A DNA stretch of 64,000 nucleotides from assembly GCF_014195545.1 (NCBI RefSeq), contig NZ_JACIBX010000014.1:1-64000 (forward strand), read 5' to 3'. A program made the translations under genes and the position numbers. This DNA is from Limimaricola variabilis. Lineage in GTDB: Bacteria > Pseudomonadota > Alphaproteobacteria > Rhodobacterales > Rhodobacteraceae. The notes under the pieces were generated by a model. That model was not told the origin of the DNA. It worked only from the letters and a program-made list of their open reading frames with translations, and did not search any database. Positions 30,593 to 48,113 of the stretch are shown piece by piece (the stretch's first letter is position 1; every line of letters starts with the position of its first letter).

Positions 30593-30704
30593 CGGGCGAA
30601 GGCCCGGTTGAGGCGGGTTTCGAGGCCGCGCTGCGCGAAAGACAGCGCCCCGAAGATGATCCAGTAGATCACCGCAACCACGAGGAACGCCTCGAAGTAG
30701 AGCG
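30589..30704 (-). pseudogene. 3' end of an amino-acid ABC permease gene
   Basis: The minus strand reads ALYFEAFLVVAVIYWIIFGA, then LSFAQRGLETRLNR, AFAR and TGA at 30591-30589. That is the last membrane span and tail of a HisM/GlnP-family permease. Similarity ends abruptly near 30704, where A+T-rich DNA leading to the replicase gene begins, so the operon was cut here by a rearrangement. Confidence 0.75.
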
Positions 30705-31243: not shown

Positions 31244-32878
31244 ATGGACGCCCTCCTGCTCTCATCCAGAGCAGTGAGACCGACCATGGGACTGGTACGC
31301 AGATCTACTTCACCCAACCCGAATGCGTTCTACGGCGTGCAGAACCCTGCAAACTGCCGGCCGAAGCCGCGCCTGACACTGGTAAAGGCCAAGCCTCCTT
31401 GCGGCGTTGGCGGCCGTTCGTTCATCGACGAAATCTGGCTGCCAGATTACGTACGAAGCAGCGCCGAAGGCAAAGCGAACCTCAAGCTTCATCCGAAGGC
31501 AGAAGTTCGAAGCGATGATTATATCTGTATCAATCCGTCATTCCGATCTGGGCGCATGCACAACGCTTTGACGTTTGATATCGACTGCAACAACGGTGTC
31601 GCAGCTTTTCTGGAGCTCTTCGAGGATACGGGCATTCATTTCTCGATGCTCGTCGGAGAGCCGTTCACGGACGAGGATATCATGGCCGACCTTGAGCGGG
31701 GCGGGTATGGCCAGCACGGCCTGAAGAGGTTGCATGCGACGATTCTGCTCGAACGCGGGGTCCCTGAGTGCGACAGGCGCGCCTATTATCTGCTCAAGGT
31801 CATTTATCATAATATTTGTGAGCGATTGCGCCAGTATGGTGCGGCCGTCGATCCAGGCCAGAAAGTCAGCACCAAGAATCCGGAGAGTCCACGATGGGCC
31901 GTAATCTCCGGAACCCGGAAGAAAACCTCGCTCTATGAGTTGGCTGCGCTGCTCGAACTCGATGTCGAAGAGTATAAGAAGATGCCGCGGCAGTATCGCC
32001 AGGATCTTTCTTGGGCGAGACGGAGTGCTCAGGAAGATGCGGATGCGACCGGCCGCAATTGCGGTGCTTGGGAGGCCTGCCGCTGGATTGCATATCAGAG
32101 CTGGTCGAGCTTCCGCTCAGAGGAGCGCTTTATCGAGCACATGATCCTGGAGGTCAACGAGCACAATCAGCTCCACAATGCCCACAACCCGATGTCGGTC
32201 AGCGAATGCCAGTCGATCGCACGCTCGATCGCACGCTGGACTTGGAAGCATCAGCCAGACCCTGCCACTTACAAGAACCGAGGCGCTGCGCGCGAATATA
32301 TGCACGCAGGCAACTCGCGAAAGCGGCGTCAGGCTATCGGTGCTCTCTATGCCAATTCAAAGCAGGTCGAGGCCAATGCGAAGAAGATCTCGGCTGCACG
32401 GGAGTTCATGAAGTCCCAAGGCGAGGTGCCGACGAAGAAAGGGGTGGCTCGCCTTACCGAACTGAGTGTGAATACCGTGCGCGCTCACTGGGATGGACAT
32501 GCTTCCACCTCACGCGAGCGTCTCGACAGCCTCCGTCAAGGGGTGTGCGTTCGGCTGCCGTCCGACTCTCAGAGCGCTGCACAGAGGGCGAGGATGGGGG
32601 TCAAAATGGTGCACTCAGAGATTGGCCCTATCAAAAAATCCACCGAACACACCGGCGCCACCTATAAGAAGGGAGAGCAGCCGCACGGCGAGGAGCATAA
32701 GGAAACCCTCCCTGAAGGTACAGGTAACCTTATAAGGCTGGGCAACCGCATGCCCCATGCTGTGCGGGCGTCTCAAAGAAACGGGGGGCAGGTGATCCCC
32801 TTGAGCACGGGCATCTCCCCACCCAGGGACGCGGAGGGTAACGTCATCCGTCGGGATCATACGGATCCTCCTTTCTAG
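31244..32878 (+). CDS. Plasmid replication initiator (ColE2-type replicase/primase)
   Basis: A 544-residue protein of the replicase (PF03090)-PriCT family. ColE2-type Rep proteins bind the origin and make a short RNA primer for DNA polymerase I. Visible blocks are HNALTFDIDCNNG (about 106-118), LFEDTGIHFSML, RRAYYLLKVIYHN, the PriCT-type core ARRSAQEDADATGRNCGAWE near 258-277, SECQSIARSIARWTWKH, and a helix-turn-helix KKGVARLTELSVNTVRAHW near 402-420. The C-terminal 100 residues are low-complexity and unlike the core. ATG 31244 and ATG 31286 (with AGTGAG) are both possible. No partition genes adjoin. This gene is the main evidence that the window is plasmid-derived. Confidence 0.75.
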   Translation: MDALLLSSRAVRPTMGLVRRSTSPNPNAFYGVQNPANCRPKPRLTLVKAKPPCGVGGRSFIDEIWLPDYVRSSAEGKANLKLHPKAEVRSDDYICINPSFRSGRMHNALTFDIDCNNGVAAFLELFEDTGIHFSMLVGEPFTDEDIMADLERGGYGQHGLKRLHATILLERGVPECDRRAYYLLKVIYHNICERLRQYGAAVDPGQKVSTKNPESPRWAVISGTRKKTSLYELAALLELDVEEYKKMPRQYRQDLSWARRSAQEDADATGRNCGAWEACRWIAYQSWSSFRSEERFIEHMILEVNEHNQLHNAHNPMSVSECQSIARSIARWTWKHQPDPATYKNRGAAREYMHAGNSRKRRQAIGALYANSKQVEANAKKISAAREFMKSQGEVPTKKGVARLTELSVNTVRAHWDGHASTSRERLDSLRQGVCVRLPSDSQSAAQRARMGVKMVHSEIGPIKKSTEHTGATYKKGEQPHGEEHKETLPEGTGNLIRLGNRMPHAVRASQRNGGQVIPLSTGISPPRDAEGNVIRRDHTDPPF

Positions 32879-32965
32879 GGGTGTCTTGCTGATGAACTCC
32901 GCCATCGTGTTCGAAACCTAGGCTAAAATTCTCGCGGCAGCCGGCGGTGCAAAGCCTCCCTATGC

Positions 32966-33776
<811 letters not shown>

Positions 33777-33784
<8 letters not shown>

Positions 33785-34784
33785 GGGGATCACCTCGGCG
33801 ATTGAGAAGCCACAGAAAGAAGGGTGCGCCAAGTGCGGCGGTCACGGCGCCCACCGGCACTTCGAGCGGCTGGAAGGCCAGCCGCACCAGCAAATCCGCG
33901 CCGGTCGTCATGGCCGCCCCCAGCAGGGCCGCCCCGATGAGTTGCGGCGCGGCCCGCGACCCGAACAGCAGGCGTGCGGCATGGGGGGCCAGCAGCCCGA
34001 CGAAACCGATCCCGCCGGCCACGCTGACCGCGCCCGCGGCGAGCGCGACGGCCAGGGCCAGGGCAGCCCCGCGCACGGCCGCCACGGGCAGGCCGGTGGC
34101 AAAGGCGCTGTCCGGATCGAGCCGCAGCTGGTCGAGCGGCCGCGCGAGAAGAATGAGCACCGGCAGCGAGAGGCCAAGCACGCTGCCGAGCAGCACCACA
34201 TCGCGTCCCTGCGCGGCCTGCACCGAACCTGCCAGCCAGATCAGCGCCTGCGAGGCGCGGTAGACGGGTCCGACGATCAGCAGGAGCACGACGAGTGCCT
34301 TGGCCAGCGCGGCAAGCGCCACGCCGTAAAGCAGAAGGCGCAGCGGATCTGCGCGATGCCTGCCACCCAACAGCAGCACGAGAAGCGCGAAACCCGTGGC
34401 ACCCAGCCCGGCGAAGGCGGGCTGCCAGGCCACCGGCACCGTCAGGTGGTTCGCGGCATCGGAGGAGATGGTCAGGAACAACAGCACCCCGACGGCGGCG
34501 CCATCGGTGATGCCCAGCACCGAGGGCGCGGCGAGCGGATTGCGGGTGGCGCGCTGCAACAGCGCGCCCGACAGCGCCAGCGCGGCCCCTGCGAGCGCCG
34601 CGAGTGCCACTCGGGGCAGGCGCAGCGTCCAGACGATGACCATGTCCATGCGCTCGCCCGTGCCCCAGAGCGCAGCGATGACCCGATCCGGACCGAGGAA
34701 ACTGCTGCCGGTGCCGATCCCGGTCAGCAGAAGGGCCGACAGAAGCATGCCCAGTAAGCCGAGGCGTGCCGCGGTGACGTTCAT
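33777..34784 (-). CDS. Iron-siderophore ABC transporter permease (FecCD family), second
   Basis: A 335-residue inner-membrane permease with about nine or ten hydrophobic spans. The FecCD signatures are RLPRVALAALAGAALALSGA, QRATRNPLAAPSVLGIT, and the cytoplasmic coupling segment GFVGLLAPHAARLLFG. It pairs with the permease upstream to form the pore. Its start overlaps the stop of that gene by four bases (ATGA at 34781-34784). Confidence 0.92.
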
Positions 34785-35755
34785 GCCGGGGCCCGCCGAT
34801 GGAGCAGTGCCAGCAGTAGGGGCACACCGGCCAGTGCGGTGACCGCCGAGAGCGGTGCCTCGCCCGGCCAGATCAGGTAACGCGCGAGAATATCGGCAGT
34901 GAGCGCCAGGGCGGCTCCCCAGAGTGCCGCGAGCGGCAGAAGCCGGGCATGTCCCGTGACCCGCATGGCGCGCGCCAGATGCGGCGCGCCGAGCCCGATG
35001 AACGCCACCGGGCCCGCGACCGCGACAGCGGTCCCCGCAAGCAGGGCGGCCAGCCCCAGAATCGCGATCCGGGCCGTGACCACCGGCAGGCCGAGCGCCT
35101 GCGCCGTCTCGTCATCGGCGGCCAGAACGTCCAGCACGGAGGCATGGAACCACGCGATGCCGGCGGCGCCGATCATCACCGGAAGGGCGGGGTCGAGCGC
35201 TGCGATGGGGCGATCGGCAAAGCCGCCGGAAAGCCAGAACAGCAGATCTTCCATCGCCTTCTCGTCGAGTATGATGGCGACCTGCGTTCCGGCCGACAGC
35301 AGGGCCGCTACCGTGACGCCGGACAGCAGGAGGCGCAGAGGCCCCGCACTGCTTCGGCCACCGCCCGCAATTCCAAACAGTAGCGCCGTCGCGGTCAGAG
35401 CCCCGAACGCCGCGCAGAGGGTGAGAAGGCCGAGGTTGCCGACTTGCCAGACCGAGAGAGCGAGCACCACGGCAAAGCCCGCCCCGGCATTGACGCCGAT
35501 CAGCCCCGGCTCGGCCACGGGATTGCGGAGCGCTGCCTGTGTCAGCAGGCCCGCGACGCCGAGCGCGGCACCGACGCCAAGCGCCAGCGCCATGCGGGGC
35601 ACGCGAAGCCCCCTAACGATCAACTCGGCTGCGTCTTGTCCTTCGCCCCAGAGGGCCTGCCAGACCGTCGCAGGCCCAGTCGGCCTCAGCCCGAGATGCA
35701 AGGACAAAACGGCTAAAGCCACGACGAGAAAAGACAGGGGCAGGACATGGCGCAT
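34781..35755 (-). CDS. Iron-siderophore ABC transporter permease (FecCD family), first
   Basis: A 324-residue permease, first gene of the leftward operon. Family blocks: RVPRMALALGVGAALGVAGL, TQAALRNPVAEPGLIGVNAG and AFIGLGAPHLARAMRV. I start at the ATG at 35755, which follows AGGCGTC; the frame extends only to a TTG at 35770. Transcription probably begins at the TATAAT box on the minus strand at 35794-35789, which lies inside the inverted repeat at 35783-35804. Confidence 0.92.
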   Translation of the reverse strand: MRHVLPLSFLVVALAVLSLHLGLRPTGPATVWQALWGEGQDAAELIVRGLRVPRMALALGVGAALGVAGLLTQAALRNPVAEPGLIGVNAGAGFAVVLALSVWQVGNLGLLTLCAAFGALTATALLFGIAGGGRSSAGPLRLLLSGVTVAALLSAGTQVAIILDEKAMEDLLFWLSGGFADRPIAALDPALPVMIGAAGIAWFHASVLDVLAADDETAQALGLPVVTARIAILGLAALLAGTAVAVAGPVAFIGLGAPHLARAMRVTGHARLLPLAALWGAALALTADILARYLIWPGEAPLSAVTALAGVPLLLALLHRRAPA

Positions 35756-35782
35756 GACGCCTGCTCGCAAATCCGACAGGAA

Positions 35783-35804
35783 CAGTCAATTATAGACTTG
35801 ACTG
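35783..35804. promoter_or_regulatory. Operator-like inverted repeat in the divergent siderophore promoter
   Basis: CAGTCAA (35783-35789) and TTGACTG (35798-35804) are perfect inverse complements separated by eight bases. The spacer edge contains a consensus -10 box TATAAT on the minus strand (35794-35789), so a bound protein would block leftward transcription. The arms do not match the Fur, Irr or RirA consensus as I know them. Confidence 0.6.
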
Positions 35805-35854
35805 AAATAGTAGGAATTGCGAGCCGAGGGAGAAATAGAACTCCGGAGACGATC

Positions 35855-36754
35855 ATGACCCGCCTTGCCGCCACCGCTCTTGCCGCCCTTCTGGCCGCCT
35901 CTCCCGCTCTGGCCCGGGAGATCACCCATACCATGGGCACCACCGATGTGCCGGACGCGCCTGAGCGGGTCGTGGTGCTGACCAATGAAGGCACGGAGGC
36001 CGCGCTCGCGCTCGGCGTCACGCCCATCGGTGCGGTCCAGTCCTGGACCGGTGACCCTTGGTATGACCACATCGCCGACGAGATGGAGGACGTCACCGTC
36101 GTCGGCACCGAGAGCGGCGTGAACCTCGAACTGGTGGCCGCGCTCGAGCCGGATCTGATCCTCGGCAACCGGATGCGGCAGGAGGAAATCTACGAACAGC
36201 TCTCCGCGATCGCGCCCACCGTGCTGTCCTCCGAGCTGCGGGGCGACTGGCAAGTGAACTTCGATCTCTATGCCGAGGCCCTCGGAAAAGGGGAGGCGGG
36301 CGACGCCGTCATGCAGGATTACGACGCGCGCGTGGCGTCGCTGTCCGAGGCGCTCGGCGAGGCGACGCAGGAGGAGGTCTCCGTCATCCGCTTCCTGCCT
36401 GGCCAGATCCGCATCTACCAGCTCGACAGCTTCTCGGGCGTGGTGCTGGACCAGCTCGGTTTTGCCCGGCCCGAGAACCAGGACGTGAACGAGTTCGCGA
36501 TGCGCGTCGGCAAGGAGAGCATCCCCGAGATGGACGGGGACCGGATCTTCCATTTCACCTACGACAAGGGTGACGGGGAAGGCGAGGCCGTAGCCACCGA
36601 AGCGCTCGCCGATCCGCTTTGGCAGTCCCTTTCGGCGGTGAAGGAAGGCAAGGTTCATGCAGTGGACGACGCAGTCTGGAACACCGCCGGCGGCGTGATC
36701 GCGGCCGAGCTTATGCTGGATGACATCGCCGGGATCTACGGCGTCCAGGAATGA
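35855..36754 (+). CDS. Siderophore-binding periplasmic protein (FecB/FhuD family)
   Basis: A 299-residue solute-binding protein of the class III (long helix) type. The signal peptide is about 1-21 (TRLAATALAALLAASPALA). The mature fold shows VPDAPERVVVLTNEGTEAAL, ALEPDLILGNRMRQEEIYEQ, and FARPENQDVNEF. It would hand the ferric chelate to the FecCD permeases encoded divergently. GGAGACGATC precedes the ATG at 35855. The stop overlaps the next start (ATGA at 36751-36754). Confidence 0.92.
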   Translation: MTRLAATALAALLAASPALAREITHTMGTTDVPDAPERVVVLTNEGTEAALALGVTPIGAVQSWTGDPWYDHIADEMEDVTVVGTESGVNLELVAALEPDLILGNRMRQEEIYEQLSAIAPTVLSSELRGDWQVNFDLYAEALGKGEAGDAVMQDYDARVASLSEALGEATQEEVSVIRFLPGQIRIYQLDSFSGVVLDQLGFARPENQDVNEFAMRVGKESIPEMDGDRIFHFTYDKGDGEGEAVATEALADPLWQSLSAVKEGKVHAVDDAVWNTAGGVIAAELMLDDIAGIYGVQE

Positions 36755-37518
36755 ACGCCCCCGCTCGCCGGTTCTGTCGCGTGGAAAGCCTGGAGGTCGG
36801 CGAAGGCCTTGCAGGCACCGGCGGGCACCCGGCCCGAATGCTGCTCATCCGCTGGCCCAAGCGGCGGTGGAGCCGCGACTTCGACGCCGCCGTAGACATG
36901 ACGGCGGCGGAGCGCGCGGCTGTGGCAAGGCTGTGCGAAGGGGGGCGGCGCGTGCAGTTGGTCGACCGCAAGGGCGAGGCTGACGGCGCGCACCGGCTTT
37001 GGCTCTATCCCGAAAACCATACACGCAGCGTAGCGCGCTTTGACCTGGCGCCCGCGCTCGAAGCGCTCGCCGCAGGAGGTCTGAACGGATGGAAGCCTGC
37101 CGAACGCCAACTACTGCTGGTCTGCACCCACGGTCAGAAAGATCGCTGCTGCGCACGTTGGGGGTTCGCGGCATACAAGGCCCTCGCCGCGAAGGCGCCA
37201 GAAGAGGTGGAGGTGTTTGAAAGCACGCATCTCGGAGGCTGTCGGCTTGCGGCTTCGACGCTCGGCCTGCCCGCCATGACCAAACATGGAAGGGTTATGC
37301 CAGCCGATGCGGGGGAGTTGCTCGACGCCGAGGGCAAGGGCGTGCCTCTACCACGCCAGTGGCGCGGCCCGTGCCATCTGTCGCCCGAAGCACAGGCCCG
37401 AGAAGTTTCCGAAAGGCTCGGTCGATCCTTGCTGCCCGGACCCCGGCGGGTCGAGCGACCGGCGACCTGCGCCGAACTCGATGCAGGGGTCACAACCGGT
37501 GGACTTAGTTGGGATTAA
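36751..37518 (+). CDS. Sucrase/ferredoxin-like protein (thioredoxin-fold [2Fe-2S] type)
   Basis: A 255-residue protein of the PF06999 sucrase/ferredoxin-like family. The C-terminal half is a thioredoxin-like ferredoxin domain with C125 in VCTHGQKDRCC (also C133, C134) and STHLGGCRL with H160 and C164, which fit the cysteine/histidine ligands of the cluster in this family. The name sucrase is historical. The start overlaps the stop of the siderophore-binding protein by four bases, so it is translated with it. A cytosolic electron carrier that reduces the imported ferric chelate is a reasonable inference; there is no siderophore-interacting flavoprotein gene in the operon. Confidence 0.85.
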   Translation: MNAPARRFCRVESLEVGEGLAGTGGHPARMLLIRWPKRRWSRDFDAAVDMTAAERAAVARLCEGGRRVQLVDRKGEADGAHRLWLYPENHTRSVARFDLAPALEALAAGGLNGWKPAERQLLLVCTHGQKDRCCARWGFAAYKALAAKAPEEVEVFESTHLGGCRLAASTLGLPAMTKHGRVMPADAGELLDAEGKGVPLPRQWRGPCHLSPEAQAREVSERLGRSLLPGPRRVERPATCAELDAGVTTGGLSWD

Positions 37519-37886
37519 ATCGACGAAACCATGCCTGGCAGGAAGGGCTCAGTTGACCGTGGCCGCGTCGACTGGCGAGCGATACCAGTCTAAATAAATT
37601 GCTGCCAGGTTCCAGGCATTGGGAAAGTCTGGCGGCGTGCATCGCCTGGGTGCGACAGGGCAGGGTGAAAGTGCCCCGCCATGGCTTTCTTGGGGAGAGC
37701 GGAGGGTTCCTATCTGTAAATGGAATACCGTGACCGAGGCGCGCGCCGTTCAGGACATCGGTGCATGCGCAACTAAACGCAGCAGCCGGGCCAGCCCGAT
37801 GGAGCTTGACCTTGTTGATCCGGTCGTTTGGAAGGACAGGGGTCGACCCGGGGCGCAAAGGTACTGGCGCTTCCGAGGGGCCGCGC
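37519..37886 (+). other. Intergenic stretch after the iron operon
   Basis: No gene found. Frames on both strands are chance-like. It separates the sucrase/ferredoxin-like gene from the RNA-like element at 37887. Confidence 0.4.
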
Positions 37887-38155
37887 ATTGTCAACATTAT
37901 GGTTTTCTTGTAAAAAAACGCCGCGTGGGGCCAGATAACTCTTGTCGAGCGGTTTGGCATTCGCTAGAAAGAGGACAACGGAAACGAGCGGCTCGAATGA
38001 GAGCGGCGCATCGAACCGGTAGCCGCCTGGCGGCTTAGAATACACACGGGTCAAACTGCGACAGCTCCTGATCCGGAGGACGAACTCCCTGGAGAAGTCC
38101 GACCCTTCCGCTTTGGCGGCTTAGCCCCGGAGATCGATCTCCGGGGTTGTTCCCT
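37887..38155 (+). ncRNA. Candidate structured RNA, copy A
   Basis: This intergenic element shares ordered blocks with 42651-42902: ATTGTCAACATTATG (37887-37901, identical), a 29-base block at 38028-38056 (24 of 29 identical), a tetraloop hairpin CCGC-TTTG-GCGG (38108-38119), and a perfect terminator stem CCCCGGAGAT/ATCTCCGGGG (38125-38146) followed by TTGTT. Between blocks the sequence has diverged. The first block could be a -35 region (TTGTCA) with TAAAAA 17 bases on. No frame spans the element. It could be a trans-acting small RNA or a duplicated leader. Confidence 0.5.
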
Positions 38156-38750
38156 TCAATAAGCTGGAGCGCACTAGTTGGCCATTCGGCCAGGGCCGCC
38201 AAGTGTATAGAAGGGCGTGGTGATTTCGGGCAGCCTGTCCGCTCTCTAGCAGAGTGCGAGTACAGGGGGCGCCCCACTCCCGGTCCCCAAGCATCGATTG
38301 TCAGGTCGAGCGCGACGTGAGGGCCTGGATCAGCGAAAGCGTCACAAGTGCCCTTCGGATCACGAGCGCAGGATTACCCCGTATTTCCTTCGTCAAGTCG
38401 GAGAGTCCGGAAAGGCTTGGCATAATGTGAGATCAATAGGGCGAACCGGTGTCTAATTCGGCAGGAGCTTGGAGGGGTCTCTTGGGCGTGAACTCGGGAC
38501 CCGGCTCCAAGGCCGGTGAGGGCGACGCGGGCGGACAGATGGTCATTCCAGCGATCAGGACAATGGTCAACCGCAACAATTAGTCCCGTCGGGTCATTTT
38601 CGCCTTTAATCCATCCGGACCATCTTCTACAGGATGTATCCAAAAGCAGTATTGCGCCTAGATCGCGCTTCAGGCGGCGCGCAAATCTTTGAGCCGATCC
38701 CGATGTCACCGGGCTCGAATCCTTTTGCGAAGGCATAGGAAGTATATTTT
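38156..38750 (+). other. Leader region of the response regulator gene
   Basis: About 600 bases with no gene seen. The A+T content rises near 38600-38750, where the promoter should be. A long untranslated leader or a second small gene cannot be excluded. Confidence 0.35.
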
Positions 38751-39485
38751 ATGACCAGAATCGCCGTGGTTGATGACAACCTGAATCTATTGATCTCCGT
38801 GTCGGCAGCTCTGGAGGCAGAGGGCTTTGAAGTTTCAACGTATCGTGATGGAGCTTCCATTATCAAGGAGTTTCCGAGGTTCGAGCCTGAACTGGTCGTG
38901 CTGGACGTAAAAATGCCCGGCATGGATGGCCTCGAGGTTCTCGAGCAGCTGCGACAGATAAGTCAGATCCCCGTAATTCTGTTGTCCGGCAAAGCTACCG
39001 AATTAGACGAGGCGCTGGGGCTGCGCATGGGGGCGGATGATTATGTGACCAAACCCTTCTCCCAGCGAGTCCTCACGGAGCGCATATCTTCGCAATTGCG
39101 CAGGCGCGAGGTTCGGATGGCGGAGCGGGGCACCCCTCATGTCCAGTCCCTCGGCGAAAGTGATCCCGACGAATCCGATACGCCGTGCATCGATCATTCG
39201 AAACTTGCGATGGATCCACGCAGTTTTTCCGTACTATGGCGAAATGAGAACGTACCGCTTACGAAATCTGAATTTGCCCTGGTGTACTTTCTGGCCAGCA
39301 ACCCAGACGTTATCATGTCCAGGGATCGGCTTCTGGATGCTCTAAATGCAGAAGATGAAAACGTGACGGACCGGAGCATAGATGGTCATATCAAGAGGAT
39401 CAGGGCGAAGTTCCGTCACGTGGATGAGGGGTTTTCTTCTATCGAAACGATGTATGGAATAGGCTACCGGTACACCGGGGGGTGA
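38751..39485 (+). CDS. ChvI-like OmpR-family response regulator
   Basis: A 244-residue two-component regulator. The receiver domain (1-about 118) has the acid pair D8-D9, the phosphorylation site D52 in VVLDVKMPGMDG, and K101 in VTKPFSQRVL. The DNA-binding winged helix (about 145-242) has LTKSEFALVYFLASNPDVIM, SRDRLLDAL, DRSIDGHIKRIRAKF and YGIGYRYTG. The receiver resembles ChvI/ExoR-pathway regulators of alphaproteobacteria, which control envelope and acid-stress genes. The usual ChvG kinase and Hpr kinase neighbours are absent, so this is an orphan, probably a paralogue. AGGAAG precedes the ATG. Confidence 0.9.
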   Translation: MTRIAVVDDNLNLLISVSAALEAEGFEVSTYRDGASIIKEFPRFEPELVVLDVKMPGMDGLEVLEQLRQISQIPVILLSGKATELDEALGLRMGADDYVTKPFSQRVLTERISSQLRRREVRMAERGTPHVQSLGESDPDESDTPCIDHSKLAMDPRSFSVLWRNENVPLTKSEFALVYFLASNPDVIMSRDRLLDALNAEDENVTDRSIDGHIKRIRAKFRHVDEGFSSIETMYGIGYRYTGG

Positions 39486-39779
39486 TTATCGCGGGTGGCA
39501 TAAAATTTTGCGGTATTGATAGACCTTGTTGCGCATGTCGGTGATTGATTTCGCGAAGACGGCGATCAGAAGTTTTCCCCAGTTATGCTATCGCATCTCC
39601 CGTCAGAGATCCTGCATATTGAAGCGTTAAGCTGACCGCTGCGTCCCTTTCTATTGCTGTGGGCACCAGATCGGCTGCCGTTACAAGCTAGTGCTGACAT
39701 GTCGGGCTGGGCTTTATGCCAAGAACGACACAAGCCCAAAGCAACCAAGCAGGCGGGCGCATGAGTATGGGCGCATGGG
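39486..39779 (+). other. Intergenic stretch, nothing identified
   Basis: No gene seen between the regulator and the transposase relic. Confidence 0.35.
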
Positions 39780-40194
39780 GCCACCGCAGGCAATCACTCG
39801 GCAATGGCTGCGCCCGATGCTCGGCAAGGTGAATCGCATCGGACAGGCCAGCTTTCATTATATTGATGACACCAGGCAGCCGACGATCGAGGCGGCTCTT
39901 CTGCCTCAGGTGGCTCCATGTGAGATGGCGTTCTCTGACGGGGCACTTCATTATCAAGCCATCGCGCGCGCCCAAGGCCTCTCGTATATGGTGCTGGTCG
40001 CAGGTCGCCGCACCAGTCGTACACTGCAGGCCTGTCACTCGGACACGGTGACTCGCCTGTACGCCCAGTGGAAAGGCGACGTCCGTAACCTGTGGGGCGG
40101 CCCAGCGAGCAAGTATCTTGACGGCTACGCGATATGGATGGTCGCCCTCAAAAGCACTGATCCGATGGCGATATTTCCCGCGGTGATCAGATGA
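39780..40194 (+). pseudogene. IS1595-family transposase relic
   Basis: The frame resembles the C-terminal half of ISXO2-type DDE transposases: FSDGALHYQAIARAQGLSYM, SDTVTRLYAQWKGDVRN, and LWGGPASKYLDGYAIWMVAL correspond to the family's TDG..Y, H..N..S..K.F and G.ATKYLDGYL.WF blocks. The conserved His and Asn before the last block are replaced, and the N-terminal half with its zinc ribbon is missing. No inverted repeats were recognised. It is probably long inactive. Confidence 0.6.
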
Positions 40195-40318
40195 TGCTTC
40201 GGGACGGTTAGCATGACGGAAGCTGAGCGATAAAGCCGGATCGTAGCGTTCTCAGAAAACTTACGCAGGCGGCTAACTTTTTGTTGCCCGGCACGCGGGT
40301 CGGTGATCTGTTAGTCAT

Positions 40319-40660
40319 ATGGCTAAGTATGACCTACGACTCGACCTTCATTTTGCGGCGCTTAGCGATCCGACCCGCCGCGCCATATTGTCCCGCCTAG
40401 CGAGGGGTAAGGCAAGCGTGAGTGAACTGGCCGCGCCCCACGACATGGCTCTGCCGTCCCTTATGGGGCATCTGAAGAAGCTTGAGGACGCGGGGCTGAT
40501 CATCACGGCCAAGGAAGGCCGGGTGCGCGTTTGTGAGCTCGCACCGGATACTTTTGTTCCGGTGCAGGATTGGCTCAGCGAACAGAGAGCGATCTGGGAA
40601 AGCAAGCTGGACCGCTTTGACGACTATGTTACCAACCTGATGAGAGAGCGTAGCCAATGA
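40319..40660 (+). CDS. ArsR-family transcription regulator
   Basis: A 113-residue winged-helix repressor of the SmtB/ArsR fold: LHFAALSDPTRRAILSRLAR, SVSELAAPHDMALPSLMGHL, and VRVCELAP. No metal-binding CxC pair is present, so it belongs to the group that sits next to SRPBCC genes and responds to non-metal signals. Its stop overlaps the start of the next gene (ATGA at 40657-40660). Confidence 0.92.
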   Translation: MAKYDLRLDLHFAALSDPTRRAILSRLARGKASVSELAAPHDMALPSLMGHLKKLEDAGLIITAKEGRVRVCELAPDTFVPVQDWLSEQRAIWESKLDRFDDYVTNLMRERSQ

Positions 40661-41145
40661 AACTCGATCCCTCGACCGACCTGACTTTTACCCGCGTCAT
40701 CGATGCGCCGCGCGCCCTGCTGTGGGAATGTTGGACCACACCGGAGCATGTAAAGAATTTCTTTGTCCCAAAGCCGCACGAAGTCTCCGACTGTCAAATC
40801 GACCTGCGCCCAGGTGGGCGGTTCAACACCACTTTCAAAGTCGATGGTAAAGAAATGCGCAATGACGGCGTCTGCTTGGAGGTCATCGACGGGCGTCGTT
40901 TGGTTTTTACCGATGCATATGCTGAAGGCTGGAAGCCAGCCGCCGATCCCTTCATGACTGCGATCATCGAGTTCGAGGATCATCCCGAGGGTGGCACAAC
41001 CTATACTGCAACAGCGCGGCACCGCTCCGCTGATGCCCGACAGCAGCATGAAGACATGGGATTTTACGACGGTTGGGGCACAGTCGCTACTCAATTTGAG
41101 GAGTATGCCAAGACTTTGGGCGCTAAAGCCGACGCAACTCCTTAA
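40657..41145 (+). CDS. SRPBCC (AHSA1-type) domain protein
   Basis: A 162-residue protein with one START-like/Aha1 C-terminal domain fold: FTRVIDAPRALLWECWTTPE, IDLRPGGRFNTTF, and EFEDHPEGGTTYTATARH. The helix-grip fold holds a hydrophobic ligand. Such genes are routinely translated together with an ArsR repressor as here, which suggests the repressor controls the pair. The ligand is not known. Confidence 0.92.
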   Translation: MKLDPSTDLTFTRVIDAPRALLWECWTTPEHVKNFFVPKPHEVSDCQIDLRPGGRFNTTFKVDGKEMRNDGVCLEVIDGRRLVFTDAYAEGWKPAADPFMTAIIEFEDHPEGGTTYTATARHRSADARQQHEDMGFYDGWGTVATQFEEYAKTLGAKADATP

Positions 41146-41769
41146 ACGGCAATCGTATCTCGCTAAGGAAGCGGGCCTCTAAGGAACACCCGCCTCATTC
41201 ACGACCTGCGCCAACAGGACATGCTGACATTTCCGGCATGGGAATATCGGCATCGTCCGAAGTGCGCCCCTTTGGAGCGGAAGCTGCGGCCGACATCCAG
41301 CACGTCGACGCTTCGGCGCCGCAATAGATAAGCTCGATTGATCCCGGACGACGCCTCTACCGCTCGTACGGGTGACCATCTGGCGCTCCGATCCGTGCGC
41401 TGGCAGGTGCGATCCACGGCGCCCGCAGAGCATCGCGGAACTGGCCTGCTGCTGCTAGCCTGGATGCTCGCTCCAGGCAGGTCGGCGTCTCGGGCAGCCG
41501 GGAACCGGTAGCCTTGTCCGCGTGACCCAGGGCGCATCGATCTCCCCCCACCCAAAGGGCCGCCCCTGATCATTCCAACTTCAGAGCCGTCCGGGCTCGG
41601 AAGGCTCAGGAGCTTGTTTCGACTCTATTGCGAAGCGCCATCGGGCGCGGGTGGCTGGTGTCGATGTCGCTCGGTCCTTCGAGGCGGTGCGGCCTCGTCT
41701 CATTGCCCCGCCGGCATTTGTGGCCTACGTGTCTCCCGCCGGGCCTGGCTCATCCTACTGGCACGCCAA

Positions 41770-41801
41770 GGCCTAAAGGCCAAAAGGCCAAAAGGCCAAG
41801 G
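41770..41801. repeat. Short tandem repeat, 8-bp unit GGCCAAAA
   Basis: About three imperfect copies of AAAGGCCA/GGCCAAAA in tandem. It is probably a slippage product; no function is evident. Confidence 0.5.
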
Positions 41802-41893
41802 CGATTATGCTTCGCCCTGAAGATCGGGCAAGGACATGATGCGCCGAGCATAGCAGAGCCGGGCAGGACCGAGGGTCCCCGAGCGTCGGTTCA

Positions 41894-41943
41894 GATACGA
41901 CGATCCGTATAAAGATACTTCCTATATAGCGGTGCGTCGTATC
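41894..41943. repeat. Inverted repeat GATACGACG ... CGTCGTATC
   Basis: Two perfect 9-base arms (41894-41902 and 41935-41943), extendable to 12 of 13, enclose a 32-base A+T-rich spacer with TATAAAGATAC and TATATAG. It could be a regulator site pair, or a relic of a transposon end or recombination site. Confidence 0.4.
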
Positions 41944-42184
41944 AGAAGCGCATTGCCCTTCCCGTTCGTCACCCCCAAGCCCGTGCCGCATGTGGCGGGA
42001 GGCAGCGCCGAGGGATATCGGGAGTGACGCTCACCCCGCCACCCCCATCATCAAGGCCGCGCCCATGCGTCACAGTAAGGAGCTTGGGGTCGCGAGTTAT
42101 CTACCTCCAAGCGTATTAACTCCCATCCGAGCTCGGCCCCGTGTATCGTCTTTCGACAAACTGCGCCCTGCATGCCACCCGCCC

Positions 42185-42511
42185 TCATGGTTGGCGTCTG
42201 CGCGACCGTATTCCTGCGCGAGGCGTCCGGGGGTGCAGCAGCTCCGCCAGATCGAAGCCATGTCGCCTGGCCGCAGCCTCGGCCGCTCGCAGGGCCTTGT
42301 CCCGGTCCGACAGGTCGGCGTCTCTTCCGGTTTCGTCGGGCGGCCGGCGCCTGACGCGCGGAGCCTCGGCCCTGCGTGCATGGTGGTCCTCATCGTCGAT
42401 CTCCCGGACAGCCCTCGACCAATTCTCCTCCTCCCTTCCGGAAGGCTCGCCGTCGCGCCGCCAGATCTCGTACGCGCGCTGCCGAATTCGATCCTCTCGA
42501 GATGGCGTCAT
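42185..42511 (-). CDS. DUF2934 domain protein
   Basis: A 108-residue, very basic protein. Residues about 4-40 (REDRIRQRAYEIWRRDGEPS then GREEENWSRAVREI) form the DUF2934 helical motif common in rhizobial and roseobacter plasmids. A second charged helix follows (DRDKALRAAEAAARRHGFDL). The function is unknown; the charge suggests nucleic-acid contact. The start at ATG 42511 follows GAGG by six bases and is preferred over the ATG at 42523. It runs away from the RNA-like element B, with 139 bases between. Confidence 0.7.
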   Translation of the reverse strand: MTPSREDRIRQRAYEIWRRDGEPSGREEENWSRAVREIDDEDHHARRAEAPRVRRRPPDETGRDADLSDRDKALRAAEAAARRHGFDLAELLHPRTPRAGIRSRRRQP

Positions 42512-42650
42512 TGCGAACCTCATGTCCTCACACTGCAAACTAGCCGGCCGGCAGGGCGGGACAATGCGCGCCAGGCCAGACAGCAGGACCGCCCCGGAGG
42601 AGGGTCTATGGCTGCGGCCCCTGAACGGGAAACCCGTGGGTGAAGCCAGG

Positions 42651-42902
42651 ATTGTCAACATTATGATAAATAGAAGAAAATCTGCGTCGGCCGTACGATT
42701 TCCGTTGCGTGTCCGGAGGGCGCAAGGTATACGGGATCCATCAAGGGAAGATTGATCGACCTTTGGCGCTGCATTGGCGGCTTACAATACAAAAGGATCA
42801 AACGCGAGAAATCGTGATCCTCAAGGTTACGCTTCATGGAAGCAGACCTCCGCCGCAAGGCGGCTTAGTCCCCGGAGATTATATCTCCGGGGTTCTGCTT
42901 TT
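42651..42902 (+). ncRNA. Candidate structured RNA, copy B
   Basis: The partner of 37887-38155. It has ATTGTCAACATTATG (42651-42665), the 29-base block at 42775-42803, a hairpin CCGCC-GCAA-GGCGG with a GNRA loop (42850-42863), and the terminator stem CCCCGGAGAT/ATCTCCGGGG (42870-42892) followed by TTCTGCTTTT. Compared with copy A, the small hairpin is one pair longer and the loop differs, while pairing is kept. The terminator stem is unchanged though its loop differs. Confidence 0.5.
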
Positions 42903-43173
42903 CGGGGATGAGCCTGCGCAATATCGCCGCAAGTCTTCTGCTATCGGGCCCTTACGGATACAGGGTGCCTTAATAACCGAGCAAACAATCCGGGCGCTGT
43001 ATCGATCGTGGAATACGTCGGCGAACTCTCCTGACCGGCCTGCCGTTCAAGACACCGGAAAGGCACAAGCCAGGATCGAAGCGTGTGTTATCACCGGAAC
43101 GACACGTTGCCATGTCATCGCGTATTCGCTAGACGGGCAAACCTGATTAATGCGTGGCTGAAAAGGAACAATC
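42903..43173 (+). other. Upstream region of the H-NS gene
   Basis: No gene seen. The promoter of the H-NS-like gene should be here; AAGGAAC precedes its ATG. Confidence 0.35.
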
Positions 43174-43530
43174 ATGGCTGATGTCGATCTTGACAGCATG
43201 GAACTTGGAGAACTCAAGGAACTTCAGAAATCCGTCGAGAAAGCGATTTCCAACTACCACGATCGCAAGCGCGCAGAAGCGCGTGCCGCTGCGGAAGCGG
43301 CCGTCCGGGAATTCGGCTACAGCCTCGATGAGGTGATTGCGCTGAAGGGCACCAAGGGGAAGTCCTCCAAATCCGGTGCGCCGGCGAAATACCGCAATCC
43401 AGAAGACCCCACCCAGTCCTGGTCAGGGCGTGGACGCCAGCCGCAATGGATGAAAGACGCGATCGAGAATGGTGCCAATCGCGATGATTTCCTGATCGAG
43501 CGCCTGAATGGCGGTCATGCGGCGGGCTGA
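43174..43530 (+). CDS. H-NS family nucleoid protein (HvrA-like)
   Basis: A 118-residue DNA-binding protein. The N-terminal helix (about 1-50, LGELKELQKSVEKAISNYHD, RKRAEARAAAEAAV) drives oligomerisation. The C-terminal domain has PAKYRNPEDPTQSWSGRGRQ and PQWMKDAIENG, the H-NS DNA-contact loop and end helix. Such proteins silence A+T-rich, horizontally acquired DNA; in Rhodobacter the HvrA type tunes photosynthesis and nitrogen genes. A plasmid-borne copy may mask the fitness cost of the replicon. It stands alone and ends before a hairpin shared with the convergent gene. Confidence 0.92.
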   Translation: MADVDLDSMELGELKELQKSVEKAISNYHDRKRAEARAAAEAAVREFGYSLDEVIALKGTKGKSSKSGAPAKYRNPEDPTQSWSGRGRQPQWMKDAIENGANRDDFLIERLNGGHAAG

Positions 43531-43592
43531 TTAAGCGACCACGCGCTGCCAGATGGGCAAGGGGCTCTGCTGAAGGAGTCTGAAATAGAAAC

Positions 43593-43617
43593 GGGCGGCC
43601 GGTGCATCCCGGCCACC
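43593..43617. terminator. Hairpin between convergent genes
   Basis: GGGCGGCCGG and the complementary CCGGCCACCC arm form a stem of about ten pairs (one G-U) between the ends of the H-NS gene and the leftward gene at 43648. There is no T-tract on either side, so termination would be weak or factor-assisted. Confidence 0.35.
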
Positions 43618-43647
43618 CATTATCCGCCTAGAGAGGGTTCTGGACGG

Positions 43648-44340
43648 TTATTGCGCCAGCTGCCGGTGCCGCTCCACCATCCTCGCCGTCCGTGATCGCA
43701 GTCCTGTTGCAGGTACGGCCCCGGAGGGAGGGGTCGAGGATCTGAGAGGTTGTCGCCTGGCGGGCGCCACCGGCGCTGCCTGCACAGCCAGTTTGGGCGC
43801 GGGGCGCTCGATCACGCCATAATCAAAGTCCGTACTCCAAGCGGGCAACCTGGCATGTGGCAGCTTGCCATCGAAATGCCTCCGTAAGGCCCCCGGCGAT
43901 GCCTCGAGAAAGGCCGCTCGCTCATCGGGCCGCAGGCCATCGAGGTAAGCAATAATCTGGGGGTGCCGCAGCCGTTTCGCGATCTCCATACGCTGGTGGT
44001 CCGTCGGCGCTTGCAGGTAGGCCTTCATTGCCGGGATCAGGCGGCCGGGGGAGCCTGAGACCGCTGCGGGTGGCTGGGGCACGGCCGAGGGCGCGTCGAA
44101 CTCCTGCTGACGCCGCGCCTGCTCCGCTGCAGCATCGTGCCCGCCGCCGCGGCTCCCCCCGAGGCCGAGAGCGCGCACTGTCTTGCGCGCCGCGACAAGC
44201 GGCAACCCGAGGATCTTCAGGATCAGATTCAAAAACTTGCGCGCCAGCTCGAGCATGGCCTCGAGCATTGCGGCACTCATCGGCGTGACAGGTTCCCCTC
44301 GTCGGCGCCGACTCGCGGGGTTGGTTGATGCATTCGTCAT
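43648..44340 (-). CDS. Uncharacterised protein with hydrophobic N-terminal helix
   Basis: A 230-residue protein, not recognised. Residues about 20-50 (AAMLEAMLELARKFLNLILK then ILGLPLVAARKTV) make a hydrophobic, possibly membrane-associated helix. A Gln/Ala/Pro-rich linker (about 68-98) leads to a helical domain, MKAYLQAPTDHQRMEIAKRL and LDGLRPDERAAFLEAS, and then a basic Pro-rich tail. AAGGAG lies six bases before the ATG at 44340. It precedes the Lon-like AAA+ gene on the other strand, and shares strand with the small coiled-coil gene at 44436, 95 bases upstream. Confidence 0.65.
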   Translation of the reverse strand: MTNASTNPASRRRRGEPVTPMSAAMLEAMLELARKFLNLILKILGLPLVAARKTVRALGLGGSRGGGHDAAAEQARRQQEFDAPSAVPQPPAAVSGSPGRLIPAMKAYLQAPTDHQRMEIAKRLRHPQIIAYLDGLRPDERAAFLEASPGALRRHFDGKLPHARLPAWSTDFDYGVIERPAPKLAVQAAPVAPARRQPLRSSTPPSGAVPATGLRSRTARMVERHRQLAQ

Positions 44341-44435
44341 CTGAATCTCCTTTGTTGCGAATACGCGGAGGAGATCCGGCGGCGGGATGCATACGACAAA
44401 CGACAGTACCCCCGGGCAGGGAAGGCGGATACGCC

Positions 44436-44708
44436 TCAGTCCGCGTCGGTCCGGCCGGAGGCGGAGGTGCCAACATCGCTCAGCCGCGCGACGATCTCCT
44501 CGAGATCGGCCAAGTCGGACATCAGCTCCGCATGCTCATCTTGCAGCGCATCGAGTTCCGCTTCGGCCGCCAGAGCCCGGGCCTTCCAGGCCGCGAGGTA
44601 GTTACCGGTGACTCGGGCGACGCGGTAGCCTTCGGGATCCATGATGGTCCGCGGCCTGGAATTCATGGCCTGCGAGAGGAGGATTGCGGAATTGATAATG
44701 CCGAGCAT
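44436..44708 (-). CDS. Small coiled-coil protein (90 residues)
   Basis: Begins MLGIINSAILLSQAMNS, a short amphipathic segment, and then forms an acidic coiled coil (WKARALAAEAELDALQDEHA, ELMSDLADLEEIVARL). AGGAG stands six bases before the ATG. No family is recognised. It is the first gene of a leftward pair with 43648-44340. Confidence 0.6.
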   Translation of the reverse strand: MLGIINSAILLSQAMNSRPRTIMDPEGYRVARVTGNYLAAWKARALAAEAELDALQDEHAELMSDLADLEEIVARLSDVGTSASGRTDAD

Positions 44709-45071
44709 GGAAATCTCCTATTGATGAGACACCCATAGACGATCGGGCCCGGATAATTATTGCAATACGTATTCAAGCGTTTCGTGTCGGAAAGCCTGAC
44801 CAGTGGTACTTGTACCGATAATTCCAGGCCGGCGTTACTCAATGCCGCCTCCATGAGGCGAGGCTGAAGGCCTGTAGCATTGTACAGCTGCACGATCGTT
44901 TTACCGCATTCGTTGCTGTCGCGCGCTCCGGCCGTGGTTGGGTAAGCCCTTGACCGCAGGCGACGCGCGAAATAGCCTCACCGCATGAGCAATAACGTCA
45001 CCATACCTCGCACCTGATTTTCTGGCACCGGGCCCCGAGGCCTGGATTTGTAGAAAAACAGGAGAGCGATC
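44709..45071 (+). other. Divergent intergenic region
   Basis: 363 bases between the leftward coiled-coil gene and the rightward AAA+ gene, A+T-rich at 44750-44830. It should hold both promoters. No clear operator was identified. Confidence 0.35.
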
Positions 45072-46469
45072 ATGGATGACGATAATTCGCAATGGGATGC
45101 GGAGGTCGGCGAGGCCATTGCCAACTATGTCGCCGAAGTTCTCGGCGAAACCGCATCTGCCGCGCCATTCAGCCTGCCGCAATTCGTAAAGGCGGTGCTC
45201 ACGGAACGACTGCCAGACTCCAGCTCCGAAGCTCAGGAAGCGGGCTACCGTGCCATCAAACGCTGGTGGACCCACACAAACGAGCAGGTCCGCGCAGAGG
45301 CCGCGGTACGCCATGGCTTCACGTACGTGCCTGAACCGAGGCTGTCCGGTGGGGATACCGGGAACGACAGCATCGATGTGCTGCATGCCGAACTCGAAGA
45401 TATCGGATTCCTGGGTGAGCTTGCTCAGATCGCAGACATGCAATTGCAGAACCAACTGGAATACCAGAAGCAGCGGCAGCAAATGGAATGCCGATGCCGA
45501 AAAACCGATGCGACCGGCGCGTCGCGGTCAGGTACTGGCCGCGCTAATCCCAATCCGGTGCGGTCGGAGGGACTGGGGCGGTACCTGCTCGACCCGGAAG
45601 CCCTGAAGAACCTGCCGGATGGCGGTCGCCAGGTGGAACGCAATGCAGCGCTGCATGCCGTGTGCACCGAGCCGGTGCCTTACGCCGAATGCCGGGATCG
45701 TGGCACGTTCGCCCGCATCCGCGAGGGGCTTGGCGCTCGCTTTCCCCACGCCACGGCGGTGATCGACGGGTTGCTCCGTCCGCTCGAGCGCAACTTTGAA
45801 CAGGGCCGGGCCGTCATCTCCCTGCGTCCCGCGATCCTCGTCGGACCGCCGGGAACCGGCAAAACGGCGCTTCTGCGGGCATTTGCCGCAGAGCTGGGTT
45901 TGCCGACGTCGCAGAAATCCGTCGCCGGCAGCGCGGATGGCAACCTGTTCGGGACGTCGGCGGGATGGTCGACAGCGATGCCGTCGATCGTGTCGTCGAC
46001 AATCGCACGGAGCGGTATTCTGAACCCGCTCATCATCCTCGATGAGATCGACAAGGCCCAGACGACGCATAATGGGTCGATCCAGGAGTGCCTGCTGCCG
46101 TTGCTCGAGCCCGGCGAAGCCAGGCGATACCACGAGCGCTATCTCGCGAGCGCGGTCGATGCCTCGGGCGTCAACTGGATCTTCAGCGCCAACCAGCTGG
46201 ACCGGATCAGCGGGCCACTGCTGTCGCGGTGTGACGTTTTCGAGATGCCCCGACCGGCAAGGCTGCATGTCCGCGCGCTTGCCAGATCGATCCTGCGCGA
46301 CCAGGCCGAACTGCTCGGTCTCCATCCAGCCTTCCTGCGGCTCACCGCGAGCGACCTGGCGTTCCTCGAGGAAAGCTTTGACCGCCATCGCAGCGTCCGG
46401 GTGCTTGCGGAACTGGTCCGCCAGCTGATCGATGACAATGCCCGCAAGACGGCCCGCGTCGTGATGTGA
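45072..46469 (+). CDS. Stand-alone Lon-type AAA+ ATPase
   Basis: A 465-residue ATPase. The N-terminal 230 residues are unrecognised and include a Gln-rich stretch (MQLQNQLEYQKQRQQMECRC). The AAA+ module (about 245-460) has Walker A GPPGTGKT (258-265), Walker B LIILDEIDK (320-328), sensor 1 in WIFSANQLDRIS, and an arginine-finger loop PLLSRCDVFEMP. It resembles the ATPase of Lon proteases, but there is no Ser-Lys protease domain, so it probably remodels a partner. AGGAGAGCGATC precedes the ATG. Two further unknown genes follow on the same strand. Confidence 0.8.
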   Translation: MDDDNSQWDAEVGEAIANYVAEVLGETASAAPFSLPQFVKAVLTERLPDSSSEAQEAGYRAIKRWWTHTNEQVRAEAAVRHGFTYVPEPRLSGGDTGNDSIDVLHAELEDIGFLGELAQIADMQLQNQLEYQKQRQQMECRCRKTDATGASRSGTGRANPNPVRSEGLGRYLLDPEALKNLPDGGRQVERNAALHAVCTEPVPYAECRDRGTFARIREGLGARFPHATAVIDGLLRPLERNFEQGRAVISLRPAILVGPPGTGKTALLRAFAAELGLPTSQKSVAGSADGNLFGTSAGWSTAMPSIVSSTIARSGILNPLIILDEIDKAQTTHNGSIQECLLPLLEPGEARRYHERYLASAVDASGVNWIFSANQLDRISGPLLSRCDVFEMPRPARLHVRALARSILRDQAELLGLHPAFLRLTASDLAFLEESFDRHRSVRVLAELVRQLIDDNARKTARVVM

Positions 46470-46636
46470 AGCGGGTCACGGACCGGGTCTGCTGCGTCGT
46501 GGATCTGGTCCGAGAAAGCCTCCCTGCCATTTGCAAAGCGATAATATCGGCCAGTGGGCCGAACGCCTCGGTTCTTTGGAATGGCTTTAATCTTTCGTCG
46601 CTAGCCTGATGTCATGTTGCAATAGGGAGCGACCCG

Positions 46637-47425
46637 ATGAAAACCCTTCACCTTTCGGAATTCAAGAAGCACCTGGAAACCGGGCATCTCAGAACGAGGT
46701 TCGAATATTTCGAGCCCCGGGCGATTGCCCCGAACGTGGCATGGGGCAGCATTCAGAACGAGATCATCACGAATGGATCGCGCTTTCAGAACCTTGCCCT
46801 GTTCTATCATTGGATAGGCGATCCGTCGCGGATTGAGGTCTACCCTTTTCTCAAAGGTGGCAGCCTCGGCGACGAGATAGGCTTCCATGTCTTGGACGAC
46901 GATGGAAATGATGCGGATCAGGACGACATCGATCGGGCCGTGCTGGAGGTGCGACCGAATATGTCGGAGTTCGATACCTCGATCCTGGGGTCCGAAAAGC
47001 AGGGCGTGGTCTGCATCGTCGACCGGGACCACCCAAAAACCTATTGCCTTCAGCGCGCGCGGCAGCCGGATGTCGTTTTTGATGGCGTAATCCGAAGTTG
47101 GTGGTGCGAAGATCAAACCCGGTCGGAGTGGACGAGATGGATCAACCGGATCAAGTACGCCACCACCCGGGGCACATTCGTCATCCTGCGCGAATATACG
47201 CTGTTCCACGGCCGGACACGCGTCAGAACGAAACGCTGGATCGACGAGATCCGCTGCGACGCCGAAGCAGATGATCTGTTCCATGATGACAGCACTGATA
47301 CAGCGGCGGAAGCGGTGCAGGAGGAAAGGTCACCTGTCTCGTTCACGTTCTGCCCGTTCGGAAGAACCGATCAGCCCGCCAGAAAATATGTCTACCTGAG
47401 CACCCCAATGCAAAAGCAGCCGTGA
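46637..47425 (+). CDS. Uncharacterised protein (262 residues)
   Basis: No family is recognised. The protein is acidic, soluble and beta-rich (HVLDDDGNDADQDDIDRAVL, GVVCIVDRDHPKTY, RTKRWIDEIRC). GGAGCGACCCG precedes the ATG, so translation is likely. It stands 167 bases after the AAA+ ATPase on the same strand and ten bases before the next gene. An operon with both is probable, and it may be a client or adaptor of the ATPase. Confidence 0.6.
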   Translation: MKTLHLSEFKKHLETGHLRTRFEYFEPRAIAPNVAWGSIQNEIITNGSRFQNLALFYHWIGDPSRIEVYPFLKGGSLGDEIGFHVLDDDGNDADQDDIDRAVLEVRPNMSEFDTSILGSEKQGVVCIVDRDHPKTYCLQRARQPDVVFDGVIRSWWCEDQTRSEWTRWINRIKYATTRGTFVILREYTLFHGRTRVRTKRWIDEIRCDAEADDLFHDDSTDTAAEAVQEERSPVSFTFCPFGRTDQPARKYVYLSTPMQKQP

Positions 47426-47434
47426 GGGACTGAC

Positions 47435-47962
47435 ATGATATCCATCCCTGCTGTTGGTGCGCCCGCTTCGTCAATCATCTCGAAACTTTCCTCCCGTATA
47501 TCCGGCACCAATGGTGACCGCGGTGAGGGATCAGAGGTGAAGTTTCTGAACAGACTGGGGGCGGTTCACTCGGCTTTCCTGAGCGACCTCCGCTTACATA
47601 TCGCTCGTGAAACCTGGATGCATGTTCTGGCCCCTTGGGCGATCGATGAACGCTTGCAGATGGAGGCTCTCGATCTTTGCGACAGCGCGTTCGCCGTGAA
47701 GCATGCAGGCGCGTTGGGCTGCAGCTCGCGGAAGACGGAAGCCCGCAAGGATTTGCAGTCCGCCGGGCATGCCTGTTTCGACGCGATCCGCCCCCTGATC
47801 GAAATCGATCGAGAGCGATTTCTCGCGAACTACGCCGCTTGCGAACGCCGCATCCGACGGGGCATCGAGATGGGGGTGCCCATCGATGCCGCGACGACAA
47901 GGATCGAGAGTGGGATGTGGATCCGGTTCTGCGATGGGCAGCCGATGGCGGCCGCGGCCTGA
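47435..47962 (+). CDS. Uncharacterised protein (175 residues)
   Basis: Mainly helical, with FLNRLGAVHSAFLSDLRLHI, WAIDERLQMEALDLCDSAFA and AACERRIRRGIEMGVPIDAA. No family is recognised. GAGGGACTGAC lies before the ATG. It is nine bases from the preceding gene, so it is the third member of the AAA+ unit. Confidence 0.6.
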   Translation: MISIPAVGAPASSIISKLSSRISGTNGDRGEGSEVKFLNRLGAVHSAFLSDLRLHIARETWMHVLAPWAIDERLQMEALDLCDSAFAVKHAGALGCSSRKTEARKDLQSAGHACFDAIRPLIEIDRERFLANYAACERRIRRGIEMGVPIDAATTRIESGMWIRFCDGQPMAAAA

Positions 47963-48113
47963 GGCAGTGCACCGCTATGCGGCCAAGTGGCTTGGGCACG
48001 GGCGAGGTGCTCATGCGCAAAGGCCGGAGGAAAGCCAGAACATCTCTGCAAGAGATCGGTCTGGTGCGGCTCTGCGCTGTGTCGCGGGTAGAGCACCTCC
48101 TGCGGGGAGGAGG

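Follow-up and report, generated by a model that had tools for sequence, protein, structure and literature searches.

We describe two related intergenic units on a 64,000-nucleotide stretch of Limimaricola variabilis DNA (positions 1 to 64,000 of contig NZ_JACIBX010000014.1, assembly GCF_014195545.1), which is referred to as a whole as the window. Both units are located on the plus strand: copy 1 (37887-38155) lies upstream of an OmpR-type response regulator gene (38751-39485, plus strand) and copy 2 (42651-42902) upstream of an H-NS family gene (43174-43530, plus strand). The units are paralogs, and each has an ortholog in L. variabilis OXR-209; the four sequences compared throughout are the two window copies and one ortholog of each. 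With somewhat better than even confidence, we propose from these comparisons that the units may be two sibling plasmid-borne small RNA (sRNA) genes, each behind upstream control DNA.

Architecture of the two units

A preliminary description of this DNA had reported the same blocks in the same order in both copies, and this arrangement is confirmed here. Each copy starts with the identical 15-mer ATTGTCAACATTATG (37887-37901 and 42651-42665, plus strand), which marks the 5' edge of the conserved unit and is a candidate operator (or -35) site. At up to three mismatches this 15-mer has only two sites in the window (shuffle mean 0.24) and at up to one mismatch only two in its own genome; TTGTCAACATTA also occurs in that genome at the two units only. 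A putative upstream control region follows on the same strand (37902-38027 and 42666-42774), dissimilar between the copies, and then a 29-base block (38028-38056 and 42775-42803) with 25 of 29 positions identical. This block contains GGCGGCTTA and a -10-like hexamer, TAGAAT (38036-38041) in copy 1 and TACAAT (42783-42788) in copy 2. GGCGGCTTA is present twice per copy, overlapping the -10-like box and again in the small hairpin, at a spacing of 86 (copy 1) or 83 bases (copy 2).

The predicted sRNA (38047-38155 and 42794-42902, plus strand) would open with a 5' hairpin, H1, at 38047-38075 in copy 1 (arms 38047-38052 and 38070-38075) and at 42794-42821 in copy 2, where it carries an AAAC bulge and a GAAA-capped inner stem. 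Towards the 3' end lie the small tetraloop hairpin H3, CCGC-TTTG-GCGG (38108-38119) or CCGCC-GCAA-GGCGG (42850-42863), and a 10-bp terminator stem, CCCCGGAGAT/ATCTCCGGGG, that is identical in both copies. This stem spans 38125-38146 in copy 1, with a poor U-run, and 42870-42892 in copy 2, where TTCTGCTTTT follows.

A BLASTn search of copy 2 against its own 3.65-Mb genome returned copy 1 at 38028-38148 (74%, E=1.4e-7); the other six matches had E-values of 0.86 or worse, and no credible third copy was seen. In neither copy does an open reading frame extend through the whole unit in both genomes. A peptide starting at the ATG within the 15-mer was considered by eye and rejected: it would be 4 codons long in copy 1 and about 22 in the copy 1 ortholog, and copy 2 would give 30 unrelated codons.

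Orthologs and boundaries of conservation

Among 72,556 plasmid records, BLASTn placed the two orthologs on separate plasmids of L. variabilis OXR-209 and nowhere else, that of copy 2 on NZ_CP139693.1 (93.7%) and that of copy 1 on NZ_CP139695.1 (96.7%); this search missed the other paralog on both sister plasmids, and relatives as diverged as the two copies are beyond its reach. No annotated feature lies beneath either match. In a local comparison with shorter words, the copy-2 query does match the copy-1 ortholog region of NZ_CP139695.1. Copy 1 matched two places on the latter plasmid, and the only other matches in the 30 kb around the copy were the terminator palindrome on the opposite strand and 23 bases at L015:9605-9627. 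With a shorter query from copy 1, two further plasmid matches of 25-30 bases (E=5) appeared, both unrelated.

Copy 1 differs from its ortholog at 5 of 269 positions (98.1% identical), compared with 50 of 283 in the left flank (82.3% identical; Fisher test against the unit, 9e-11) and 38 of 594 aligned positions in the right flank (93.6% identical; p=0.004). In the response regulator gene, 21 of 245 third codon positions have changed, against a divergence of 1.9% in copy 1. The conserved unit of copy 1 thus extends from the 15-mer to the terminator with sharp edges. The same pattern is weaker in copy 2, in which 15 of 252 positions differ (94.0% identical) against 39 of 271 in the right flank (85.6% identical; p=0.0015). 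The copies had been described as differing freely outside the shared blocks. This holds between the paralogs after the 15-mer, but the stretch is no free spacer, because 37887-38027 and 42651-42774 are 98.6% and 95.2% identical to their respective orthologs.

Window positions 30001-50000 were further compared with stretches of the two L. variabilis plasmids, about 20 kb and about 30 kb long. Positions 30060-35051 and 41980-48277 match NZ_CP139693.1; 37604-39529, 41244-41364 and 41443-42044 match NZ_CP139695.1; and 35052-37603 together with most of 39530-41442 match neither of the compared plasmid stretches. These matches show the window to combine two plasmid backbones as a mosaic, and this explains why two paralogs lie within 5 kb. 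The junction near 41980-42044 coincides with a stretch matched by both plasmids.

The upstream motif and the candidate promoter and terminator

The motif ATTGTCAACAT has four sites in the 392,403 bases of the two L. variabilis plasmids, where about 0.19 are expected on both strands under equal base frequencies and where the reversed pattern, used as control, has none. Two of the four are at the unit orthologs. The other two (L036:9841 and L036:25377) are located upstream of other coding sequences on NZ_CP139695.1, at 175 and 226 bases 5' of T8T21_RS19590 and T8T21_RS19515, both annotated as hypothetical. The genome of Limimaricola litoreus contains a single match, compatible with chance. As a motif common to the units and two other genes, ATTGTCAACAT is read as a candidate regulator site. 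Both non-unit sites are additionally preceded, 15-20 bases upstream, by CATACCTATA, which was not seen in the 90 bases before the candidate sRNA copies.

The -10-like TAGAAT or TACAAT ends 5 bases 5' of H1 in both copies, a position that would place the transcription start at about 38047 and about 42794. The terminator of copy 2 was recovered by a simple terminator scan (one found; shuffle mean 0.5).

Predicted RNA structure

The upstream halves show no folding signal, with z-scores of -0.60 (37905-38027) and 1.01 (42670-42774) in the window and of -0.04 and -0.20 in the orthologs. The core of copy 2 has a z-score of -5.30 with its terminator and -3.59 without it, and its ortholog -4.44 without terminator. 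Because z is near 0 upstream against -3.59 and -4.44 in these cores, the upstream half reads as conserved control DNA.

The fold of copy 2 is supported by pair probabilities of 0.75-1.0 in the outer arms of H1 and 0.67-0.98 in its inner stem, and the sole ortholog change in this hairpin, G to A, keeps the pair (G-U to A-U). All four sequences give good predictions for H3 and the terminator stem. As had been noted earlier, the small hairpin stays paired despite its change in length and loop, with probabilities of 0.89-0.94 in copy 1 and 0.74-0.87 in copy 2. Two of the three differences between the core of copy 1 and its ortholog constitute one compensatory change, C-G to U-A, in the outermost H1 pair (38047:38075); a simple simulation put the chance of this at 0.0066, for a structure picked after seeing the data. 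An RNAalifold structure in which the two GGCGGCTT repeats pair with each other was rejected as unsupported.

Searches for relatives

Covariance model R1 scored 131.2 bits at 38028-38156 and 148.1 bits at 42775-42902, each sequence being itself part of the model. Among 394 genomes of the family it otherwise returned only 11 weak matches, spread over 10 other genomes and scoring 17-23 bits (per-genome E 0.025-0.54), in a search that scored eight first-look candidates per genome and could miss weak homologs. Nine of the 11 were judged chance matches from their alignments; the remaining two (L023 and L027) are confined to positions 96-118 and 93-118 of the model. BLASTn with copy 2 against 195 related genomes yielded, beyond its own genome, four matches of 22-28 bases that were read as chance; at most three candidates were scored per genome, own copy 1 was missed, and the search is blind to relatives at the level of the paralogs. 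In the same 195 genomes, a hairpin-plus-terminator pattern, which as written could not match copy 1, found own copy 2 only. The unit was detected in one of eight genomes of the genus Limimaricola, its own. Exact patterns gave no match in the genome_contigs and viral_contigs sets, and phages gave none with the copy 2 query, the only one used there. No Rfam family matched the window at its gathering score, relaxed E-values producing 12.8-19 bits against gathering scores of 35-100. The expectation that related genomes would hold further copies was thus borne out in part, by the orthologs on the two L. variabilis plasmids, with nothing wider detected.

No description of the unit was recognised in the literature at the level of titles and abstract openings, and the terms 'small RNA' and 'H-NS' are absent from the main text of the L. 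variabilis OXR-209 genome paper (PMC12016528).

A proposed model of two sibling sRNA genes and its alternatives

An sRNA had already been suggested in the preliminary description. An sRNA gene is also the best-supported reading here, with a likely transcript of about 105-109 nucleotides (nt) rather than about 250 nt. The control region would span about 125-140 bp, from the regulator site ATTGTCAACAT at its start to the -10-like box at its end. No -35 element is common to both copies, and transcription would therefore probably need an activator. The RNA would run from the start proposed above to the terminator stem and would fold into H1, a variable middle hairpin (H2), the small tetraloop hairpin with the invariant GGCGGCUUAG, and the terminator stem. 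It would most likely act in trans by base-pairing with mRNA. Two conserved stretches have the complements GTTTGAYCC and CTAAGCCGCC; with at most one mismatch allowed, the window contains 27 and 10 sites for these, own-unit sites included, and 12 and 5 of 100 shuffles, respectively, gave at least as many.

Several results weigh against this model. Besides the missing common -35, the promoter and terminator scans of the two copies do not clearly rise above shuffles, and copy 1 with its poor U-run gave no terminator at all (shuffle mean 1.2). Conservation does not separate the units from all of their surroundings: copy 1 versus the response regulator gene (31 of 732 positions differing from its ortholog) gives p=0.085, and copy 2 does not differ significantly from its left flank (43 of 455 positions; p=0.12) or from the H-NS gene (p=0.86). 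The core of copy 1 folds weakly, with z-scores of -2.30 with terminator and -0.77 without (ortholog -1.69 without). In this copy the energy of the shared H1/H2 fold exceeds the minimum by about 9 kcal/mol, its pair probabilities are 0.02-0.10, and H1 (outer pairs 0.04-0.08) is not part of the minimum-energy fold; in its ortholog the shared fold lies about 7 kcal/mol above the minimum, with H1 outer pairs at 0.02-0.03. The outer H2 stem of copy 2 carries three changes in the ortholog, each of which disrupts a pair, and the ortholog shows a longer inner stem instead. The terminator stem and the GGCGG arm are invariant and provide no covariation. Finally, a target duplex search over 21 assumed start regions, all in the window, yielded nothing convincing, with a best z of -2.06 among 42 tests.

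A single RNA of about 230 nt, transcribed from the upstream motif with TTGTCA as -35 and carrying GGCGGCTTA twice, would account for the conservation of the whole unit from ATTGTCA onwards. It would also suit the whole-unit folding z-scores (-1.7 in copy 1, about -3.1 in copy 2) and the one promoter-like site scanned in copy 2, TTGTCA-18-GAAAAT, although this is near shuffle level (mean 0.4). We nevertheless regard it as rather unlikely: the scan of copy 1 contains no plus-strand promoter-like site, the first half has no structure of its own, and the other two ATTGTCAACAT sites show by eye no obvious -10 at 17 bases. The terminator could alternatively be the core of a DNA element, such as a transfer origin (oriT), a single-strand initiation site or a protein-bound palindrome. 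It is a perfect palindrome of 22-23 bp whose arms are invariant in all four sequences, as is GGCGGCTTAG; the copies of L. variabilis OXR-209 occupy separate plasmids, and the U-run of copy 1 is weak. The palindrome centre, however, varies in length and sequence, both plasmids are typed as non-mobilizable (a MOB-suite label; no dedicated oriT test), and the par genes of NZ_CP139695.1 lie about 80 kb from copy 1 one way and 55 kb the other way round the circle. With the H1 compensatory pair and the folding of copy 2 pointing to RNA, such an element appears unlikely.

In a third reading, the unit would serve the downstream gene as 5' leader (attenuator) and its terminator would act as the switch. 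In both genomes copy 1 is indeed 5' of the response regulator gene and copy 2 5' of the H-NS gene, and the position upstream of a regulator, as given in the preliminary description, stands. The link to these genes is weak: conservation falls past the terminator and, for copy 1, rises again just before 38751; the two genes are unrelated (595 and 271 bases beyond the unit, respectively); and directly upstream of the H-NS gene of NZ_CP139695.1 there is no copy, the only one detected on that plasmid being 4.4 kb away on this side and separated from the gene by two others. We consider a leader improbable. The presence of two copies in one contig might also suggest a functionless remnant of a repeat or mobile element. 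Such a remnant is highly improbable given the sharp-edged constraint on copy 1 and the lack of a further copy in the own genome, and the two-backbone mosaicism accounts for the duplication.

Comparison with known systems and implications

Antisense RNAs that control plasmid replication (ctRNAs) are likewise short, structured, terminator-bearing and plasmid-encoded. The antisense overlap with a rep leader or gene was not found here: no annotated replication gene overlaps or adjoins the units, copy 2 begins about 10 kb after the end of the window's PriCT_1 gene, and on NZ_CP139695.1 a distance of 55-80 kb separates the par genes from the copy 1 ortholog. The two sRNA candidates recall AbcR1 and AbcR2 of Brucella (PMC5461406) in being a paralogous pair: short intergenic candidates with a common scaffold that differ elsewhere. 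Unlike AbcR1/AbcR2, they are plasmid-borne, predicted from sequence and without Rfam match; the likeness drawn is one of description. Plasmid-encoded sRNAs have been identified on pNDM-HK (PMC5880898), and 18 candidates were reported on a plasmid of Paracoccus denitrificans (PMC5107571), a related genus. These share with the present pair that they are short RNA genes between the genes of a plasmid. They were reported as identified sRNAs or RNA-seq candidates whereas ours are predicted, and they too are likened by description only. Small RNAs of a Methylorubrum plasmid have been mentioned in relation to plasmid-chromosome cross-talk (PMC9426580).

If transcribed, the units would form a Limimaricola plasmid sRNA pair with a candidate shared operator that links them to two other plasmid genes. 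They would make plasmid-encoded RNA regulation accessible to study in marine Rhodobacterales and would leave the general picture unchanged; a new but ordinary kind of regulator is plausible. A bolder idea, which we find doubtful, is that of a plasmid-specific sRNA family in which plasmids coexisting in one cell carry sibling RNAs with a common scaffold and a diverged middle. Through ATTGTCAACAT both RNAs would be tied to a small regulon on the plasmids, and the invariant GGCGGCTTA, found at the promoter as well as in the 3' hairpin, would be their common recognition site, so that the plasmids would cross-talk by RNA.

Downstream genes and the neighbouring module

The gene 3' of copy 1 resembles ChvI: its product has Pfam domains Response_reg and Trans_reg_C and is 49% identical to a record annotated chvI. 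The product of the gene 3' of copy 2 has the Pfam domain Histone_HNS, and its ortholog is annotated H-NS. No unit was found near three H-NS paralogs of the own genome. Relatives of an AAA ATPase gene located further downstream were present at E<=1e-30 in 8 of the 394 family genomes, the own genome included; the single homologous locus in Limimaricola litoreus has no unit within its 20 kb.

Window positions 43174-46469, with the H-NS gene, two hypothetical genes in reverse orientation and the AAA ATPase gene, form a module that both L. variabilis plasmids retain, with 64-72% DNA identity. The AAA ATPase region resembles Lon, far below the family cut-off. Elsewhere in the own genome (G000 C1:3629-5834), an H-NS paralog (66%) is followed by a short match to the end of the AAA ATPase gene, possibly a decayed copy of this module.

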